Source: Anaerolineales bacterium (lineage in GTDB: Bacteria > Chloroflexota > Anaerolineae > Anaerolineales > Villigracilaceae). Taken from it: DNA of 10,950 nucleotides. The notes beneath the pieces are model-generated. The model had not been told where the DNA came from. It was given only the letters and a program-made list of their open reading frames with translations, and ran no database searches. The stretch covers positions 1-10,950 of the forward strand of contig JAICQC010000123.1 in NCBI GenBank assembly GCA_025938055.1, read 5' to 3'. The position numbers and the translations under genes were made by a program. Positions 2,403 to 10,070 of this stretch are shown piece by piece (position 1 is the first letter of the stretch; the number at the start of each line of letters is the position of its first letter).

Positions 2403-3224
2403 TTACGAGAGAATCTCGTCGCCAAACTCCGTGTAGATCCAATTCAGCACTTCGAAAGTATCCACGCGGGCAGAATAGCCAACGCCCGCGCAGTTGGAGT
2501 TGGTCACGTACGAATTGACCGCCAGCACGATGTTCGTATCACGCAGCAGGTCCGGACCGCCCGAGTCGCCGAAGCAGGTTCCGCCCGAGCCGCCGCCCGG
2601 GTTCAGCGCCAGCTTCATGAACTCGTCGCTGTGCTTGAAGTTGCCCGAGATCAACTCGCTCGGGGCATACAGGCGGACCCTCAGCCCAGTCCAGACGGGA
2701 GGACCACCGCCGCGGATCTGTTCCTGCACGCCGTAGCCCACAAAGTCCACGGGAGTCTTGTTCTCCAGCGTATCCACCAGATCTTGTGCCGGCAGTTCGG
2801 CGTATTCGCTGACCACGCTGGTCGGGACCGGTTCACTCAGGACGATGATGCCCACATCGGTGGAGGCAAAGCCGGGCAGCCCGTTCCCGCAGCCGATACA
2901 GAAATCAGGGTGGGTGAAGGCAACGCCCTCATAGGAGGTTGCGCCGCTGAACGGGTACTCGGTGTTGGACTGCACATCCTCATCGAACCAGATGCGCGCA
3001 GCCGAGGTGCCATCCGTGCAGTGCCCCGCTGTCAGCACAAGCGTGGGAGAGAGCAGGGATGCGCTGCAGCGGTGGGACGGCTCTCCGTCCACATCGAAGA
3101 CAGCCAGTCCCACGTATGGGTGACGGCCATTATCCGGCTCGCCGTTGGTTATGGCGCTGGCACCACCGATCGGTCCGATCAAGAGCGCAATGGCAAGCGC
3201 CAAAGCTAACGTAACTTTTTTCAT
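2403..3224 (-). CDS. Secreted chymotrypsin-fold (S1 family) serine protease
   Basis: A 273-residue exported endopeptidase. Residues 1-24 form a Sec signal peptide (MKKV, a hydrophobic stretch, then GGASA). The predicted mature protein starts ITNGEPD, matching the Ile-Val-Gly-Gly N-terminus of activated S1 proteases. The catalytic triad is His68 (LTAGHC), Asp123 (STDVGIIVL) and Ser221 (CFGDSGGP). Cys53 and Cys69 can form the histidine-loop disulfide. Six residues before Ser221 the S1 pocket floor is glycine, not the aspartate of trypsin, and a valine (residue 240) takes a pocket-wall position usually held by glycine. This suggests cleavage after small aliphatic residues, elastase-like, by analogy. 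No propeptide lies between signal and mature start. There is no TM anchor or C-terminal sorting domain, so it is probably released. AAGGAG lies about 11 nt upstream of ATG 3224, a rather long spacing. Confidence 0.94.
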   Translation of the reverse strand: MKKVTLALALAIALLIGPIGGASAITNGEPDNGRHPYVGLAVFDVDGEPSHRCSASLLSPTLVLTAGHCTDGTSAARIWFDEDVQSNTEYPFSGATSYEGVAFTHPDFCIGCGNGLPGFASTDVGIIVLSEPVPTSVVSEYAELPAQDLVDTLENKTPVDFVGYGVQEQIRGGGPPVWTGLRVRLYAPSELISGNFKHSDEFMKLALNPGGGSGGTCFGDSGGPDLLRDTNIVLAVNSYVTNSNCAGVGYSARVDTFEVLNWIYTEFGDEILS

Positions 3225-3584: not shown

Positions 3585-4370
3585 TTAATCAGTCCAGCCT
3601 TCGAGACGGAAGAGGCGCGCCAGGCGGTCGCTCAGTCTCGGAGCGAAGACGTTGATGTAGTACAGCAGCCTTGCCTGCGGAGGGACGATCACAATAGGCT
3701 TACGCTTGCGGAGGGCGTGGAGGATGGCGCGTGCCACGCTCTCAGGAGAGATCTTCGGCGAGACCCACGAGAAGCGCAGGTTCTCGATCATCACGGTGTC
3801 CACTCGTCCGGGCAGGACGTTCGTGACCGCTATGCCATGATCGCTGACTTCCTGGCGCAGTACTTCCAGGAAGCCGGTGAGCGCAAACTTCGCCGAGACG
3901 TAAGGTGCATCGGGCGGCAAGCCGATCTTGCCGTCCATGCTGGTGACGGCGAGGATGTGCCCGCTCTTCTGTGCAAGCATGTGCGGCAGAACTGCCTTGA
4001 TGCAGTACACGCCGCCAAAATAATTAACATCCAGGGATCGCTGTAGATCAGCCGGGTCAAGATCAACGATCGGACCCCGAATATACTCTCCGGCGTTGGA
4101 GATCAGGATGTCCACGCGCCCCCATGTTGATAATACTTCCTGCACCATCGCCTCGACCTGTTCACGCCGCGTAACATCCACTTGCATGGCGAGCGCTTTG
4201 CTTCCGTTCCGCTCGATCTCCCCGGCAAGCTCTCGCAGGGCTGCCTCCCTCCGTGCTACAAGAGCAACGCAGGCTCCCTCTTTTGCGAGCGCCAGCGCCG
4301 TCGCCCGCCCGATCCCCACAGAAGCGCCAGTGACAATGGCGACCTTATCACGGAAGGGGTTACTGCTCAT
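3585..4370 (-). CDS. Short-chain dehydrogenase/reductase (classical SDR)
   Basis: A 261-residue cytosolic NAD(P)H-dependent oxidoreductase with a complete classical SDR motif set. The Rossmann glycine motif TGASVGIG is at 14-21, and arginines at 40-41 after the second strand hint at NADP(H) preference. VDV (64-66) contacts the adenine, NAG is at 92-94, and the catalytic residues are Ser144, Tyr157 and Lys161 (YVSAK). PGRVDT (187-192) follows the active site. The C-terminal tail (about 215-261) is longer than the minimal fold and carries a hydrophobic, basic stretch (VIVPPQARLLYYINVF) that may cap the substrate pocket or touch the membrane. The start ATG overlaps the last 11 nt of the upstream gene, which implies translational coupling and a shared process. 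The substrate is unknown. Confidence 0.93.
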   Translation of the reverse strand: MSSNPFRDKVAIVTGASVGIGRATALALAKEGACVALVARREAALRELAGEIERNGSKALAMQVDVTRREQVEAMVQEVLSTWGRVDILISNAGEYIRGPIVDLDPADLQRSLDVNYFGGVYCIKAVLPHMLAQKSGHILAVTSMDGKIGLPPDAPYVSAKFALTGFLEVLRQEVSDHGIAVTNVLPGRVDTVMIENLRFSWVSPKISPESVARAILHALRKRKPIVIVPPQARLLYYINVFAPRLSDRLARLFRLEGWTD

Positions 4371-5841
4371 GTACGTGGTGAGAGTCAGGCGAGGTGAGGC
4401 TCTCTGCTATTGTGGCGCGCTCACCCTTGATTTCATAGATGAACGGACCCTGTGGGATGTCGTTTGTGATCTCGATCTCACGCCTGTCCATGGCTTCCCA
4501 GATCGTCTGGAAAGCAGACTTGTCCTGTACCCACTTTTCGACGATGACCACGCCGTGGCCCGGCAGGACGGTGAAGACGATTTGACGGGGGTCATTCGGG
4601 TTCTGAAGCGCCTGCGAGCTGGAGAACGCCTCCTGCACGGCGCGGTACTGGGCGTCGGTGGAGCACGAGACGGGGTAGTAGAGATAACTCTCGGGCACAG
4701 GCACGTACTCAACGCGCGTCTGGTCGAAAGAGCGCACGCCGCGATGCCCATGCAGCTTCGAGCGGATAACGGGCACCTTTGCGCCGTTCGCTAGCGTGAG
4801 CCGCGGCAGTGGTACGTCCATGCCGATCATCTCGACTGCTTCCGAGGAGGGTGGGTGGTTGGGGTGACCCTCCACTTTGCGGATGAGGGCGCCATCTCTC
4901 TGAGGCTTAATGCCAACGATGACTGCCAGGTCTTTATCGGTGATATTCTCCTTGCGGACGGGGCGGGCGCTGCCGGTGATGGTGGTGAGTAAGCCGTTGA
5001 TGCGAGGCTCACAGGTGGCGAAACAACCTTCACTGTACTGCTGTGAGATGGCGTCGCTGAAGCCGGGGATCTCGGCAACCTGCGCGACCTTGATCATTTC
5101 GGTGAAGAAGTCCCGCCTGCCAAGCTCATGGCTGGCTCGAGTCATCTCTTCGATGGAGGCGAGACTTTCCCATTTGTCTCGTGTGATCGGGGGTTCCACG
5201 GTCTCGTGGCTGGTGATCTCTTCGGTGCTGGCGGCTGTAAGGATGCGGGTGGCGATGTCTTTGTAGAATGTCTCCGGGTCGCTGAACCTGATACGGGGAT
5301 GCGCGCCGACCAGGTCGAAGAGATAGGCGGATTCGGGCTTCTCATCCCCAACGACGAGCAGGACGCGGATGCACTTCGTCTGGATCTGAACGATGCGCAG
5401 GAGGTACATGATGACACCGCCGCGCTTCCCCTGCTGGTGCAGGGTGTGTGAGGCGGTCTCAGGGATGCCTGCAAAAGGAGGCGCGGCTTCCTCTCCTCCC
5501 TGAAGGACGTTTTCCACTTTGCCCATCCAGTCGCTGAACTGCTGTGTAGTGGCGTGGACAACCGTGAAGACAGTCGGCACGTGTTTGAGCGCATAGCGCC
5601 GCCGGGCAGTGAACATCAGTGCCTCGCGCCAGCCGAGAGGTTCGCCGAGGCGGGCAGTGGTGAGGATGACTTCTGTCTCGGGGGATGGCTGCTGCGGGGT
5701 GCTGTGTCCCTCGGCTGCGAAGTACTCCATCAGGTCTGAGGCGACCTGTTCGGAGAGAGGCGTGGACGGACCGGGGATATGGGTGACGGTGAGCTGTTTG
5801 AGCCAGGTGTGCGTGGGAGTTTGTAGGGCAGGGTACCGCAT
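4360..5841 (-). CDS. Unrecognised 493-residue protein, co-transcribed with SDR
   Basis: I do not recognise this family. The frame extends upstream to an ATG at 5898, but the ATG at 5841 is preferred: it has AGGAAG about 7 nt upstream and gives 493 residues starting MRYPALQTP. No signal peptide or TM segment is visible, so it is probably cytosolic. Segments that look conserved-like are EGCFATCEP (271-279), GLLTTITGSARPV (283-295), EGHPNHPPSSEA (324-335) and KLHGHRG (362-368). Clustered His, Cys and Glu there could bind a metal or a sugar-like ligand (inference). The N-terminal half (about 55-200) alternates strands and helices, for example VILTTARLGEP and VFTVVHAT. The gene overlaps the downstream SDR by 11 nt, which suggests they act in one pathway. 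The high G+C and third-position bias support real coding. Confidence 0.85.
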   Translation of the reverse strand: MRYPALQTPTHTWLKQLTVTHIPGPSTPLSEQVASDLMEYFAAEGHSTPQQPSPETEVILTTARLGEPLGWREALMFTARRRYALKHVPTVFTVVHATTQQFSDWMGKVENVLQGGEEAAPPFAGIPETASHTLHQQGKRGGVIMYLLRIVQIQTKCIRVLLVVGDEKPESAYLFDLVGAHPRIRFSDPETFYKDIATRILTAASTEEITSHETVEPPITRDKWESLASIEEMTRASHELGRRDFFTEMIKVAQVAEIPGFSDAISQQYSEGCFATCEPRINGLLTTITGSARPVRKENITDKDLAVIVGIKPQRDGALIRKVEGHPNHPPSSEAVEMIGMDVPLPRLTLANGAKVPVIRSKLHGHRGVRSFDQTRVEYVPVPESYLYYPVSCSTDAQYRAVQEAFSSSQALQNPNDPRQIVFTVLPGHGVVIVEKWVQDKSAFQTIWEAMDRREIEITNDIPQGPFIYEIKGERATIAESLTSPDSHHVHEQ

Positions 5842-6030
5842 AAAAGTCTTCCTGTGGTGTGAGGTTGGTATAGATGTTATACAGCCTGTTAACACCAATC
5901 AGCAGGACTGGTTGTGAAGTGATCTTTCTGTATGGACAACACGGACTGCCCGTTTATTATAATGAATTTGATTCAGAATAGGTTTCCCCCTTCAAATAAA
6001 GAATGTCTAATTCCGAGGATATACTCAGCA

Positions 6031-6924: not shown

Positions 6925-7134
6925 ATGACGACACAAGAACTGGCGTACACAGAAATCCAAAGGCTGGGAACAAATTTCAGGAACATGCCTGCTGCCTGTG
7001 TGCCAGAAGATGGACTCGACCGCGCCCGTGATCTGGACAAGGCAATTGCCAACCTGGATCGCATGATCGATTAGCATGTTTATGAGTTGTATGGGCTCAC
7101 GGAAGAAGAGATTAAGACCGTGGAGGGAGGGTAA
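6925..7134 (+). pseudogene. Amber-interrupted C-terminal fragment of a type II/IIG N6-adenine methylase-like restriction protein
   Basis: From ATG 6925 the frame gives 49 residues (MTTQELAYTEIQRLG ... NLDRMID), stops at TAG 7072-7074, then continues in the same frame as HVYELYGLTEEEIKTVEGG to TAA 7132-7134. The joined end, ...LDRMID-x-HVYELYGLTEEEI...VEGG, closely resembles the last residues of TaqI-like/Eco57I-like N6-adenine methylases and type IIG enzymes, which end ...IDxxVYELYGLTxEEIxxVEG (family recollection). No methylase catalytic domain (NPPY) precedes it: the frame is closed by TGA at 6919-6921. So it is a decayed remnant, or a small free-standing protein of which the 49-residue part is still made. 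A single CAG-to-TAG change explains the stop. It ends 4 bp before the next gene. Confidence 0.65.
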
Positions 7135-7384: not shown

Positions 7385-8950
7385 TTGACAACGTTATTCA
7401 TTAGCTATGCACGGAAAGATAAGGCAAAGGTCTACTCATTTGCCGACGAACTTCGCGATCTGGGCTTTGATGTTTGGGTCGATGTCAGCGGCATTCGGGG
7501 TGGAAAGCAATGGAGCGCCGAAATCGTAAAAGCGATTACCGATTGTGATTTCTTTTTGCTTTTCATTTCATCGGCTTCCGTTGAATCCGATAACGTCCGC
7601 CGCGAGGTGGATCTTGCTTTCCAGAACAACAAGCACATCCTTCCTTTGCGACTTGAAAAAGTGGGTATCCCTCTCACCTGGGCTTATCAAACGGTGGGAA
7701 TTCAATGGATCGAGTGTAGTGAAAAGGGTTGGAAATCGCGCTTGCTCGTTGCCCTGGGCAGTCAAAGTGAAATACCGAACCTCGCAACAGAGAATACCGG
7801 GACACCATCCAGAATTACGCAAAGTCGTGTTCAGATCATTATTGAAGGAGAAATAGCAGATTTTAATCAAACCCGTAGAGAAGACCTGGTCCTGATGCTC
7901 GCGGCTGTTCTGCGAGTGGATGCGGAGGAGATCCGATTGTTGAGCGTCAATGAGGGGAGCATCATAGTAGATTTCCTCCTTCCGGAAACAGCAGCCAACA
8001 AGCTGTTTGACCTGGCTCGCAAAAAGGATTTTAGACTTATCGAACTGGGTATTGCATCTCTGGTTTTTGATCTGGATGATGTCGCGTCTCAAGAGCAGGA
8101 TATTCTTAGTGAGGCCGATCCATCCATAAGCGTTAATCAAGCGCGGAGGTTGATCGAAATAAAGGTACGGTCGAACCAGAAGAACAACAAGAGTACCGAT
8201 GGAGGACTGCTCTCCCGGCTGTTGGACAAATTCTCGCGCCGAGATTCGATAAAAAGACAACGAGGAGTTGCACGCCCACATACGGGATCTGGCAAATTAT
8301 TCCCGGAGTTTGACACAGGCTCTGAAGTGCTAACCCGATCAGCGACATCATGGATCGTTGTCATGATAGCTGCTTTCGCAATCGTTGCCGCGATGCTATA
8401 TGGTTACTCTGGTTTGGTCAGACCGGTTCCCTCAGCCGTGGATGCAACCGGGACTATGGAAGCGTTTGGTACGATGGCTGCGATCACAACACAGGAATAT
8501 GAAATGAGTCTGACCCGTGCCGCGGCTTCTACTCTAACTCCTGCTATTGCCGTGTCTCCTACACCTTCACCGGAAGAGCTCACCCAAATCTTCATAGTGG
8601 ACGTTCAGCCTTCTTCAGGTTCGGAGTCTCCGCCGGACAGCAGCGAATGCTTATGGACACAAGTCAACGGCGAGGGCGCATCCATCGTGCTAACACTCGA
8701 ACAGGAAAGCACAATTCACAAGCTGCGGGTGTCGTTATTTACGCCGTACGTGCAGCGAGTCCGGCTGACGTTCAGCGACAATTCGCAGCAAACTGTAACA
8801 TTCGAAAGATACGGAGATTATATATTCCAGGAAATTCTTCTTGACCCGGTAAAAACGACGACAATTACTGTTGAAGTCCTGGAGGTCGAGGGCAATTCAT
8901 TCGATAGTTACGGAATCTGTCATATCGAAGTCTTTGGAACAGTACCTTGA
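7385..8950 (+). CDS. TIR-domain transmembrane receptor-like protein
   Basis: 521 residues from a TTG start; no ATG or GTG is available between the upstream stop (7358-7360) and FISYARKD, and AGGAA lies about 11 nt upstream. Residues 1-125 are a TIR domain: FISYARKDK, VWVDVSGIRGGKQW, ITDCDFFLLFISSAS, and the SxxSxxS...E pattern placing Glu74 at the NADase catalytic position of enzymatic TIRs. Residues 147-230 form a beta-alpha-beta-beta-alpha-beta-like domain with NEGSIIVDFLLP and ELGIASLVF, resembling the adaptor (TRADD-N-like) domains linked to bacterial effectors; this is tentative. A basic stretch (282-298), a TM helix (322-341) and a Thr/Ser/Pro stalk (349-399) follow. Residues 420-519 are a beta-rich discoidin/glycan-binding-like sandwich with Cys422 and Cys512. 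Positive-inside logic puts TIR in the cytoplasm and the sandwich outside: a sensor-to-NAD-cleavage receptor is the leading inference. Confidence 0.92.
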   Translation: MTTLFISYARKDKAKVYSFADELRDLGFDVWVDVSGIRGGKQWSAEIVKAITDCDFFLLFISSASVESDNVRREVDLAFQNNKHILPLRLEKVGIPLTWAYQTVGIQWIECSEKGWKSRLLVALGSQSEIPNLATENTGTPSRITQSRVQIIIEGEIADFNQTRREDLVLMLAAVLRVDAEEIRLLSVNEGSIIVDFLLPETAANKLFDLARKKDFRLIELGIASLVFDLDDVASQEQDILSEADPSISVNQARRLIEIKVRSNQKNNKSTDGGLLSRLLDKFSRRDSIKRQRGVARPHTGSGKLFPEFDTGSEVLTRSATSWIVVMIAAFAIVAAMLYGYSGLVRPVPSAVDATGTMEAFGTMAAITTQEYEMSLTRAAASTLTPAIAVSPTPSPEELTQIFIVDVQPSSGSESPPDSSECLWTQVNGEGASIVLTLEQESTIHKLRVSLFTPYVQRVRLTFSDNSQQTVTFERYGDYIFQEILLDPVKTTTITVEVLEVEGNSFDSYGICHIEVFGTVP

Positions 8951-8990: not shown

Positions 8991-9611
8991 ATGAACAACA
9001 ACGCTGACACCAAGCTGGTAGAAGTATTATCCAATCACTATAGTGAAACTTTTGATCAACTAAAGGAAGTCGTTGCAAGGCGTGACCGTCTATTTTTGTA
9101 TATTTTGTTGGTGATCTTCATCCTGTTGCTGTATATCAGCAGCCCAACCGTAATGAGCGATTGGGTAAATTCATTCTTTAGTAGTCAGGTCACCGGAGCC
9201 ACTGGCACGACTATGCAACCGCTCATCAATGTAGCAGTGATTGGTGTTGTCTTGTTGTTGGCACTGTTAAGTTTTTCGCACACGTACTTCCAAACCGTCC
9301 TGCATATCGAGCGACAATACGATTACGTCTATCAACTCGAAGAACAGCTGGGCAGGTTTTTCAGCGACAAGGCATTCATTCGTGAAGGCAAACATTATCT
9401 CAATTACAAGCGTAGGTTCTCCTCGTGGACAAAGTTTATCTTTTGGTATCTCTTTCCAGCCCTATATTTGTTGTTCATACTCTACTTTCTATGGTTCTTA
9501 TTCACAACCTCGCAAACCGACGTTGGTTATAAGATCATTGACTTGTTGATCACCGTGAGTATCATGATCTCACTGGGGTTTTATTTGTTGGCGATCATTA
9601 AGAAGAAATAG
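8991..9611 (+). CDS. Four-helix membrane protein, possible partner or effector of the TIR receptor
   Basis: 206 residues. Residues 1-32 are a predicted amphipathic cytosolic helix ending in ARRDR. TM helices lie at about 33-52, 79-100, 146-172 and 181-203. The loop 101-145 (HIERQYDYVYQLEEQLGRFF, then KHYLNYKRR) is charged and predicted cytosolic; the C-terminus ends KKK, inside. The plan resembles the small multi-TM effectors (SLATT or S-4TM type) that accompany bacterial nucleotide-signalling and immunity genes, but no diagnostic motif was recognised. AAGGAAAG sits upstream of ATG 8991, 40 nt after the TIR stop. The gene is visibly A+T-richer than the ABC and SDR genes, hinting at horizontal origin. 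It could also be a scaffold for the receptor. The membrane topology is well supported; the role is a guess. Confidence 0.85.
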   Translation: MNNNADTKLVEVLSNHYSETFDQLKEVVARRDRLFLYILLVIFILLLYISSPTVMSDWVNSFFSSQVTGATGTTMQPLINVAVIGVVLLLALLSFSHTYFQTVLHIERQYDYVYQLEEQLGRFFSDKAFIREGKHYLNYKRRFSSWTKFIFWYLFPALYLLFILYFLWFLFTTSQTDVGYKIIDLLITVSIMISLGFYLLAIIKKK

Positions 9612-9614
9612 TAA

Positions 9615-10070
9615 ATGAGTGCATATTCTAAGACGTATCGAATTCGATTTTCAGATATTGATGCCAACAGGCATGTCAATAATGCTGTTTACATTGATGC
9701 GGCGGGCGAAATCCGCTATCAATTCTTTGCAGAAAATGGCTTCCCGCCAGAGCGATTCGAACAACTCGGAATCGGTCCCGTGTATACAAAGATTACTACT
9801 CAGTTTCTGCGTGAAGTGCTATTGGGCGAAACTGTGACGATTACCTTTACTCTGACAGGTCTCTCGCCTCAGGGTATGTTCTGGAGAGCCCATCACGACA
9901 TTCTCAAATCCAATGGTAAGAAGGCTGTCATCGTGGATATGGAAGGTACGATTCTTGATCTGACCACGCGTAAGCCCGCCCCATCGAGCGAGGAACTCAT
10001 GCGCGTCTTCCAATTGATTCCGCATTCGGAAGATTTCGAAATCCTGCCCGAGGTTCGTAGAGTGAAATGA
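9615..10070 (+). CDS. Hotdog-fold acyl-CoA thioesterase (4HBT type)
   Basis: 151 residues, the usual length for a single hotdog domain. The N-terminal motif RFSDIDANRHVNNAVYIDA (11-29) matches the family signature in which Asp16, His20 and Asn22-Asn23 shape the active site before the central hotdog helix (about 25-40). The strand-rich rest (VTITFTLTGLSP, FWRAHHDIL, KAVIVDMEGTIL) fits the antiparallel sheet. The likely reaction is hydrolysis of an acyl-CoA or acyl-ACP thioester in the cytosol; chain length cannot be told. The start lies 3 nt after the stop of the 4-TM gene with only a weak AAGAAG before it, so translation is probably coupled to that gene. Whether it serves the TIR module (for instance in lipid remodelling) or is a passenger is open. 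Confidence 0.88.
   Translation: MSAYSKTYRIRFSDIDANRHVNNAVYIDAAGEIRYQFFAENGFPPERFEQLGIGPVYTKITTQFLREVLLGETVTITFTLTGLSPQGMFWRAHHDILKSNGKKAVIVDMEGTILDLTTRKPAPSSEELMRVFQLIPHSEDFEILPEVRRVK

Follow-up and report, generated by a model that had tools for sequence, protein, structure and literature searches.

Bacterial TRADD-N proteins, as set out by Kaur, Iyer, Burroughs and Aravind in 2021, carry the TRADD-N domain centrally, between a variable N-terminal effector (TIR being one of those named) and a variable C-terminus (PMC8195603); statements on this and the other papers cited here refer to the sections of them that were available. Region 141-232 of an Anaerolineales protein served in that work as a search seed for TRADD-N, and the C-terminal parts are typically repeats, a STAND nucleoside triphosphatase (NTPase), caspase, PAS, GUN4, bDLD3 or HTH (PMC8195603). 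These TRADD-N and effector-associated domain (EAD) conflict proteins are the nearest architectural kin of the protein described here (the query), which is encoded on a stretch of 10,950 nucleotides (the window; contig JAICQC010000123.1, assembly GCA_025938055.1) from an Anaerolineales bacterium. The query follows the published order of effector, TRADD-N and variable C-terminus, and it joins an N-terminal TIR domain and a TRADD-N-type domain to a single transmembrane (TM) helix, a stalk and a discoidin/CBM32-type beta-sandwich predicted to lie outside the cell. We propose, at somewhat better than even confidence, that it is a single-pass surface receptor in which binding outside would lead to TIR assembly, NAD+ cleavage and cell stop or death.

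In the TRADD-N account, TM helices and outside domains (CHASE2) are assigned to a partner caspase protein, and its available sections do not describe a TM helix with an outside discoidin domain on the TRADD-N protein itself; the query has both (PMC8195603). NPCBM (discoidin-like) and FGS (C-type-lectin-like) sensors fused to effectors, TIR included, are called intracellular there and are often tied to NTPases (PMC8195603), whereas the query sensor is predicted to be outside, behind a TM helix, on a protein without an NTPase. Dore 2024 described C-type lectin sensors with NTPases, diversified by diversity-generating retroelements, of which some lectin domains are predicted to be periplasmic (PMC10907252); that placement is alike, but a discoidin or TRADD-N receptor is not described in the sections available. 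In GAP1-N2 and membrane two-gene conflict systems, TM helices are accompanied by cadherin or PBP domains that are extracellular (Kaur 2020; PMC7159879), but their core domains differ from those of the query and are not of the TIR-TRADD-N-TM type. The defence-linked Arabidopsis protein PP2-A5 combines an N-terminal TIR with a C-terminal beta-sandwich lectin (PMC12355970), but it is a plant protein with a PP2 domain, and the available text mentions no TM helix or TRADD-N. No description of a TIR-TRADD-N-TM-discoidin protein was found in the openly licensed literature searched, to the extent of its available sections, and other papers could describe such a layout. Published work already covers TIR-TRADD-N proteins and lectin-type sensors inside the cell; the outside-facing transmembrane form had no counterpart in the literature searched.

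The original prediction had seen in the query a Toll-like receptor mirrored in reverse order. Toll-like receptors and death receptors combine recognition outside, one helix, and TIR or TRADD-N within. A Toll-like receptor has an N-terminal leucine-rich repeat (LRR) ectodomain, a TM helix and a C-terminal TIR, whereas the query has its TIR at the N-terminus and discoidin at the C-terminus, carries no leucine-rich or TNFR ectodomain (no LRR family is among its 6 Pfam matches at E up to 1), and has TRADD-N in the same chain instead of on an adaptor of its own. The likeness stands as an analogy and not as kinship, which lies with the TRADD-N/EAD conflict proteins. Another analogue is provided by receptor kinases of the PknB/PrkC type, which have an N-terminal effector inside, one helix and a C-terminal wall-binding domain outside; the layout is alike, TIR standing where they have the kinase and discoidin where they have PASTA.

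Domain folds and predicted membrane topology

Both the TIR domain and its catalytic-type glutamate, as named in the original prediction, were recovered. The TIR_2 profile scored 85.3 bits against a cut-off of 28, and a profile search of solved structures listed 14 relatives, the best being Cat1, a CRISPR-associated TIR (6.1e-12), with SARM1/tir-1 and AbTIR included. In the profile alignment Glu74 falls on a glutamate of 8p2l (NAD hydrolase SARM1/tir-1), which we take to be the catalytic glutamate of TIR NADases, and the position is Glu in 22/22 aligned TIR-TM-ectodomain proteins (the set defined below). As judged from sequence, the query TIR probably cleaves NAD+. The best PADLOC matches were Argonaute-associated TIR effectors (5.2e-15), among others, and covered the TIR end only, residues 1-137 at most. 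Membership of Thoeris (ThsB/ThcB) was rejected because NCBIfam ThcB4 reached 37 bits where 220 are required; the PADLOC matches were limited to the TIR domain and flanking linker.

The nature of the TIR domain bears on whether the query might instead be a membrane-tethered signalling scaffold, in which TIR would serve assembly or send a second messenger to another effector, with no killing via NAD+ depletion. TIR domains in known systems also serve as scaffolds or signal producers. The adjoining TRADD-N is, moreover, an interaction domain (PMC8195603). However, the invariant glutamate would be unexpected were catalysis dispensable (a signal producer would retain it too), and no partner effector was recognized among the neighbouring open reading frames (ORFs) scanned; we consider a scaffold improbable.

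The alpha/beta adaptor-like domain claimed earlier could be assigned to the TRADD-N type. Residues 139-262 were modelled at a predicted local distance difference test (pLDDT) score of 83.3, and Foldseek placed TRADD-N 1f3v first (E 7e-3), no match being as strong as E 0.001. The model has the RRM-like beta-alpha-beta-beta-alpha-beta fold of the TRADD-N superfamily, and Gly191-Ser192 provides the small residue-Ser motif that is defined for the beta2-beta3 turn of that superfamily (PMC8195603); the Ser is at least 90% conserved across a 21-row TRADD-N alignment. Both Pfam TRADD-N models scored below the curated cut-off on the query (16.7 versus 22.5 and 15.6 versus 23.7), one lay above it on the relative L020 (23.3 versus 22.5), and each turned up in 5/7 members of one TRADD-N alignment at E up to 1. 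When residues 140-270 were used as a region query, just the query and its homologue P0003 were recovered.

The C-terminal sandwich was likewise borne out as discoidin-like, since the model of residues 399-521 (pLDDT 80.5) matched CBM32/discoidin domains. NCBIfam NF047619 (NADase-type discoid glycan-binding domain) reached 16.9 bits against a cut-off of 38, over residues 456-514. Proteins of this fold take many ligand types; from the model, glycan binding by the query sandwich is plausible. Its two cysteines, Cys422 and Cys512, possibly form a disulphide.

Topology was compared across an author-selected set of 22 TIR-TM-ectodomain proteins (the window and its homologues supplied 8, the TRADD-N survey 3, and the TIR survey described below 11 of its 13), with helices called by hydropathy and not by a trained predictor. 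Excluded from the set were P0008 (TIR-TM-discoidin-WD40, in which a TPR-like stretch was also seen by eye), L070 (nSTAND1 between TIR and TM; the frame ends at the locus end) and L051 (the same gene as L037); L045, incomplete at its 3' end, was kept. Within 20 residues of the helix, Lys plus Arg were more numerous on the TIR side in 20/22 proteins, tied in 2/22 (P0003 and P0010) and reversed in 0/22 (sign test P = 1.9e-6, which overstates independence because the 22 proteins are homologous). Thr, Pro and Ser were enriched past the helix in 22/22, as claimed earlier for the query stalk, and the cysteine count was even in 21/22 ectodomains (P0011 has 1; L037 has 0) versus 8/22 cytoplasmic parts, parity being judged by eye. 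Charge bias, the make-up of the stalk and the even numbers of cysteines all fit a predicted topology in which TIR and TRADD-N are inside and the ectodomain is outside; the reversed topology, with TIR outside, is disfavoured by the charge bias and stalk position across the set. Among seven non-TIR TRADD-N receptors, charge bias gave 4 for, 3 ties and 0 against, and just 3/7 had a richer stalk. A single helix with a basic cluster before it had been claimed for the query. The single helix was confirmed (peak at 320-338), but the tight cluster was not: 12 Lys and Arg are spread across residues 266-318, the densest stretch lies about 27 residues ahead of the helix, and the bias within 20 residues is slight (2 versus 1).

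Sequence evidence, fold models and comparison with relatives support the domains of the original prediction, their order and their topology. In the mechanism that we propose, the outside discoidin/CBM32-type domain would bind a glycan or other envelope ligand, and the ligand, or damage, would cluster the receptor. The signal would cross the stalk and then the helix; within the cell, TRADD-N domains would associate mutually or with TRADD-N/EAD partners, and the TIR domains would assemble in active form to cleave NAD+ or produce an ADP-ribose signal, after which the cell would stop or die, putatively in defence.

Homologues and the mosaic of outside domains

A full-length search, in which the 7993 candidates with the most shared words were scored, yielded 19 proteins, query included. 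P0003, a 77% homologue, has the layout of the query. P0004 and P0006 match it in BLAST over TIR (66-70%) and TRADD-N (53-55%) and have no match to the sandwich; the C-terminal part of P0004 resembles CBM30, slightly below cut-off (24.9 versus 27). P0010, P0011 and P0013, which have a TM helix and a TIR at 65-70% to the query, gave no TRADD-N match, and the C-terminal domain of P0010 is FGE. More distant proteins of the query layout end in SH3_3 (P0019) or CBM9 (L037). P0005 and P0007 match the query over its inside half and lack a TM helix; P0005 (Hsp90-like tail, contigs of at most 1.3 kb) was not used as receptor evidence. A contig scan with the query protein alone found nothing, and one with an alignment found 17 loci. 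As far as sequence comparison goes, the query layout is not a one-off: its inside half is also met joined to different outside domains, and its sandwich is carried by other proteins too. The outside-sensing role of the original prediction is made more likely because the inside module is joined to differing lectin- or wall-binding-type outside domains.

The sandwich of query type (58-68%) was found in P0008 and in the TIR-less proteins P0012, P0017, P0021 and P0022. These four carry a CarboxypepD_reg domain (just below cut-off in P0022), with one N-terminal hydrophobic segment ahead of it in P0012 and two in each of the others. Occurrence without TIR means that the sandwich need not act as a trigger, as would be expected if it were a mere anchor or spacer and sensing took place inside, via the TRADD-N region or partners. 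A single helix alone would do for anchoring, however, and between query and P0003 the sandwich is kept at 100/123 identical residues versus 32/51 for the juxtamembrane region (TIR, 114/125; TRADD-N, 95/116; TM helix plus stalk, 51/79), so that we regard a passive sandwich as highly improbable.

Two surveys covered the class to which G006 belongs, G006 being the genome of L006 and an Anaerolineae-labelled metagenome-assembled genome (MAG). A sandwich-only profile matched 0/386 class genomes, a search that had no positive genome as control and so shows little. TRADD-N matched in 18/396 class genomes (19 matches), giving with L019 a total of 20 ORFs (L018-L037), several of them incomplete at locus ends (among them L020, L023, L024, L027, L030 and L032). 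One TM helix after TRADD-N with at least 60 residues beyond it was present in 10/20 (L021, L022, L026, L027, L029, L031, L034, L035, L036 and L037). In L030 a long segment follows three helices, L028 is tail-anchored, and six (L018, L019, L020, L024, L025 and L032) lack a helix over the stretch read. The multi-pass membrane proteins L023 and L033 have TRADD-N near the N-terminus. Among the 10/20 ORFs scanned with Pfam, the TIR-TRADD-N-TM-ectodomain order was found three times (L021, L022 and L037). In others of these, TIR is replaced by EAD7 (L029 and L034 over the cut-off, L026 under it) or by a kinase (L036). The C-terminal domains over cut-off were CBM9 (L037) and cohesin (L029). L029:1168-2763 (+) and L034:1228-2247 (+) both read EAD7-TRADD-N-TM with a part beyond the helix, the cohesin in L029, and could pair with EAD7 effectors of the same genome; L036:604-2730 (-) reads Ser/Thr kinase-TRADD-N-TM-Thr/Pro stalk. 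A phylum-level TRADD-N search matched 7/400 genomes, 4 of them already met, and its new loci (L042-L044) stand outside all counts.

The second survey used a sandwich alignment that included the TIR part of two rows; the profile hence drew TIR proteins and was used as a TIR survey, with 165/396 class genomes matched. Among the matches listed, 60 loci were read (20 with the search and 40 in listed order, G321:C83 being skipped for internal stops), which gave 63 TIR ORFs, 59 of them distinct; L055 and L074 gave none at threshold. One TM helix past residue 120 with at least 60 residues beyond was present in 13/59, no TM helix in 45/59, and 1/59 was multi-pass; the rows were ranked by likeness to a profile containing membrane TIRs, and 13/59 is therefore not a class-wide rate. 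Among TIR ORFs of at least 300 amino acids the membrane layout occurred in 13/43, versus 3/81 neighbouring non-TIR ORFs (Fisher P = 6e-5), the controls being mechanically called ORFs that may include non-genes. The statement in the original prediction that most bacterial TIR immunity proteins are cytosolic agrees with the 45/59, but the membrane layout is not singular to the query.

Pfam placed FGE on 8 of the 13 membrane TIR ORFs (L063, L068, L072, L076, L084, L086, L091 and L092), LysM on L069, CBM9 on L051 and WD40 behind nSTAND1 on L070, and gave no name on L045 and L066; FGE, LysM or CBM9 is the outside domain in 10/13, and TRADD-N is present in L051 only. In the eight TIR-TM-stalk-FGE proteins, FGE, which has a C-type-lectin-like fold, is predicted outside, whereas FGS is described as an intracellular sensor in the available text of PMC8195603. 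L069:1772-3196 (-) reads TIR-TM-LysM, with LysM as two stretches past the helix (53 bits). Its layout is similar to that of a plant LysM receptor, with TIR where the plant receptor has a kinase.

These outside domains also bear on a self-surface or envelope-integrity sensor, in which the discoidin domain, like LysM or FGE in relatives, would attach to the wall or sheath of the cell itself and TIR would be triggered once this contact is lost or rearranged, examples of possible settings being kin recognition and the programmed death of cells in filaments. The LysM past the helix of L069 is consistent with such a sensor, and wall-type and lectin-type folds make up the majority of the named outside domains. 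Of the 17 related TIR loci, 13 came from Anaerolineae or Chloroflexi MAGs, a group that includes filamentous members. On the other hand, relatives with alike inside halves have wholly different outside domains, which fits diversified recognition better; both the self-binding and its loss as the trigger are, in our estimate, rather unlikely.

More tentatively, and at a little less than even confidence, we suggest that Anaerolineae-type bacteria possess modular surface immune or death receptors in which an effector (TIR, EAD7 or a kinase), one helix and a swappable lectin- or wall-binding ectodomain are combined, often together with TRADD-N and commonly with a Thr/Pro stalk. Such a class would represent a bacterial extrinsic death pathway, the counterpart of Toll-like receptor, TNFR/TRADD and plant LysM receptor signalling. 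Bacterial immune proteins with parts known from animal immunity are mostly described as intracellular, responding once infection is under way; with a glycan-type sensor outside and TIR-TRADD-N inside, some bacteria would judge threats at the surface, and the bacterial ancestry already known for TIR and TRADD signalling would gain an extrinsic branch. The swapping of ectodomains makes the receptor idea testable through ligand binding and topology.

Gene features and neighbouring genes

The ORF encodes 521 amino acids from a TTG start; AGGA lies upstream, and 7358 is the position of an in-frame stop. The start agrees with an MT[TK]LF start in 5/6 aligned homologues, P0019 beginning MSHIF. Chimeric assembly of the query is unlikely because P0003, with matching layout, sits on a separate 35-kb contig.

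Features of the TIR-TRADD-N-TM-discoidin gene, in window positions
Feature	Residues	Positions	Strand	Evidence
Coding sequence, TIR - TRADD-N - basic juxtamembrane - TM - stalk - discoidin		7385..8950	+	Full-length homologue P0003, 77%
TIR domain	1-125	7385..7759	+	PF13676, 5.9e-24, residues 5-113; solved TIR relatives
Glu74, presumed TIR NADase catalytic-glutamate position	74	7604..7606	+	Alignment to 8p2l; Glu in 22/22
TRADD-N-type adaptor domain	147-237	7823..8095	+	Model pLDDT 83.3; Foldseek 1f3v; TRADD-N alignment
Gly191-Ser192, small-residue-Ser turn motif of TRADD-N superfamily	191-192	7955..7960	+	Ser at least 90% (21 rows); motif per PMC8195603
Variable basic juxtamembrane region (densest Lys/Arg 285-293)	263-318	8171..8338	+	P0003 identity 32/51; 12 Lys/Arg
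Single transmembrane helix	about 320-341	8342..8407	+	Hydropathy 2.36 at 320-338, sole segment above 1.9
Thr/Pro/Ser/Ala-rich stalk, predicted outside	342-398	8408..8578	+	Thr+Pro+Ser 0.35 in the 60 residues past the helix versus 0.23 ahead of it
Discoidin/CBM32-fold sandwich, predicted outside	399-521	8579..8947	+	Model pLDDT 80.5; CBM32/discoidin matches
Cys422 with Cys512, two ectodomain cysteines	422; 512	8648-8650; 8918-8920	+	Invariant in 7/7 rows, query included

Directly upstream, a short remnant frame at 6925-7134 (+) is interrupted by a stop; its 49-amino-acid piece has no Pfam match, and its end, which by eye we take to resemble restriction-modification methylase ends, makes a decayed defence gene possible. 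Downstream, a membrane protein with four hydrophobic segments (8991-9611, +) starts 40 bases past the TIR gene and is followed after 3 bases by a 4HBT thioesterase (9615-10070, +), the two forming a possible operon. A conserved operon with the TIR gene was rejected: the membrane gene matched weakly in 3/386 genomes, at loci of 3.2-3.6 kb without a TIR ORF, and the TIR gene is therefore treated as stand-alone. Elsewhere in the window, a 512-amino-acid ORF at 4360-5898 (-) was matched by nothing in Pfam, NCBIfam and PADLOC at the thresholds applied, and 2403-3224 (-) encodes a Trypsin-family serine protease (65.7 bits) with a hydrophobic segment at residues 4-22 that is likely a signal peptide.
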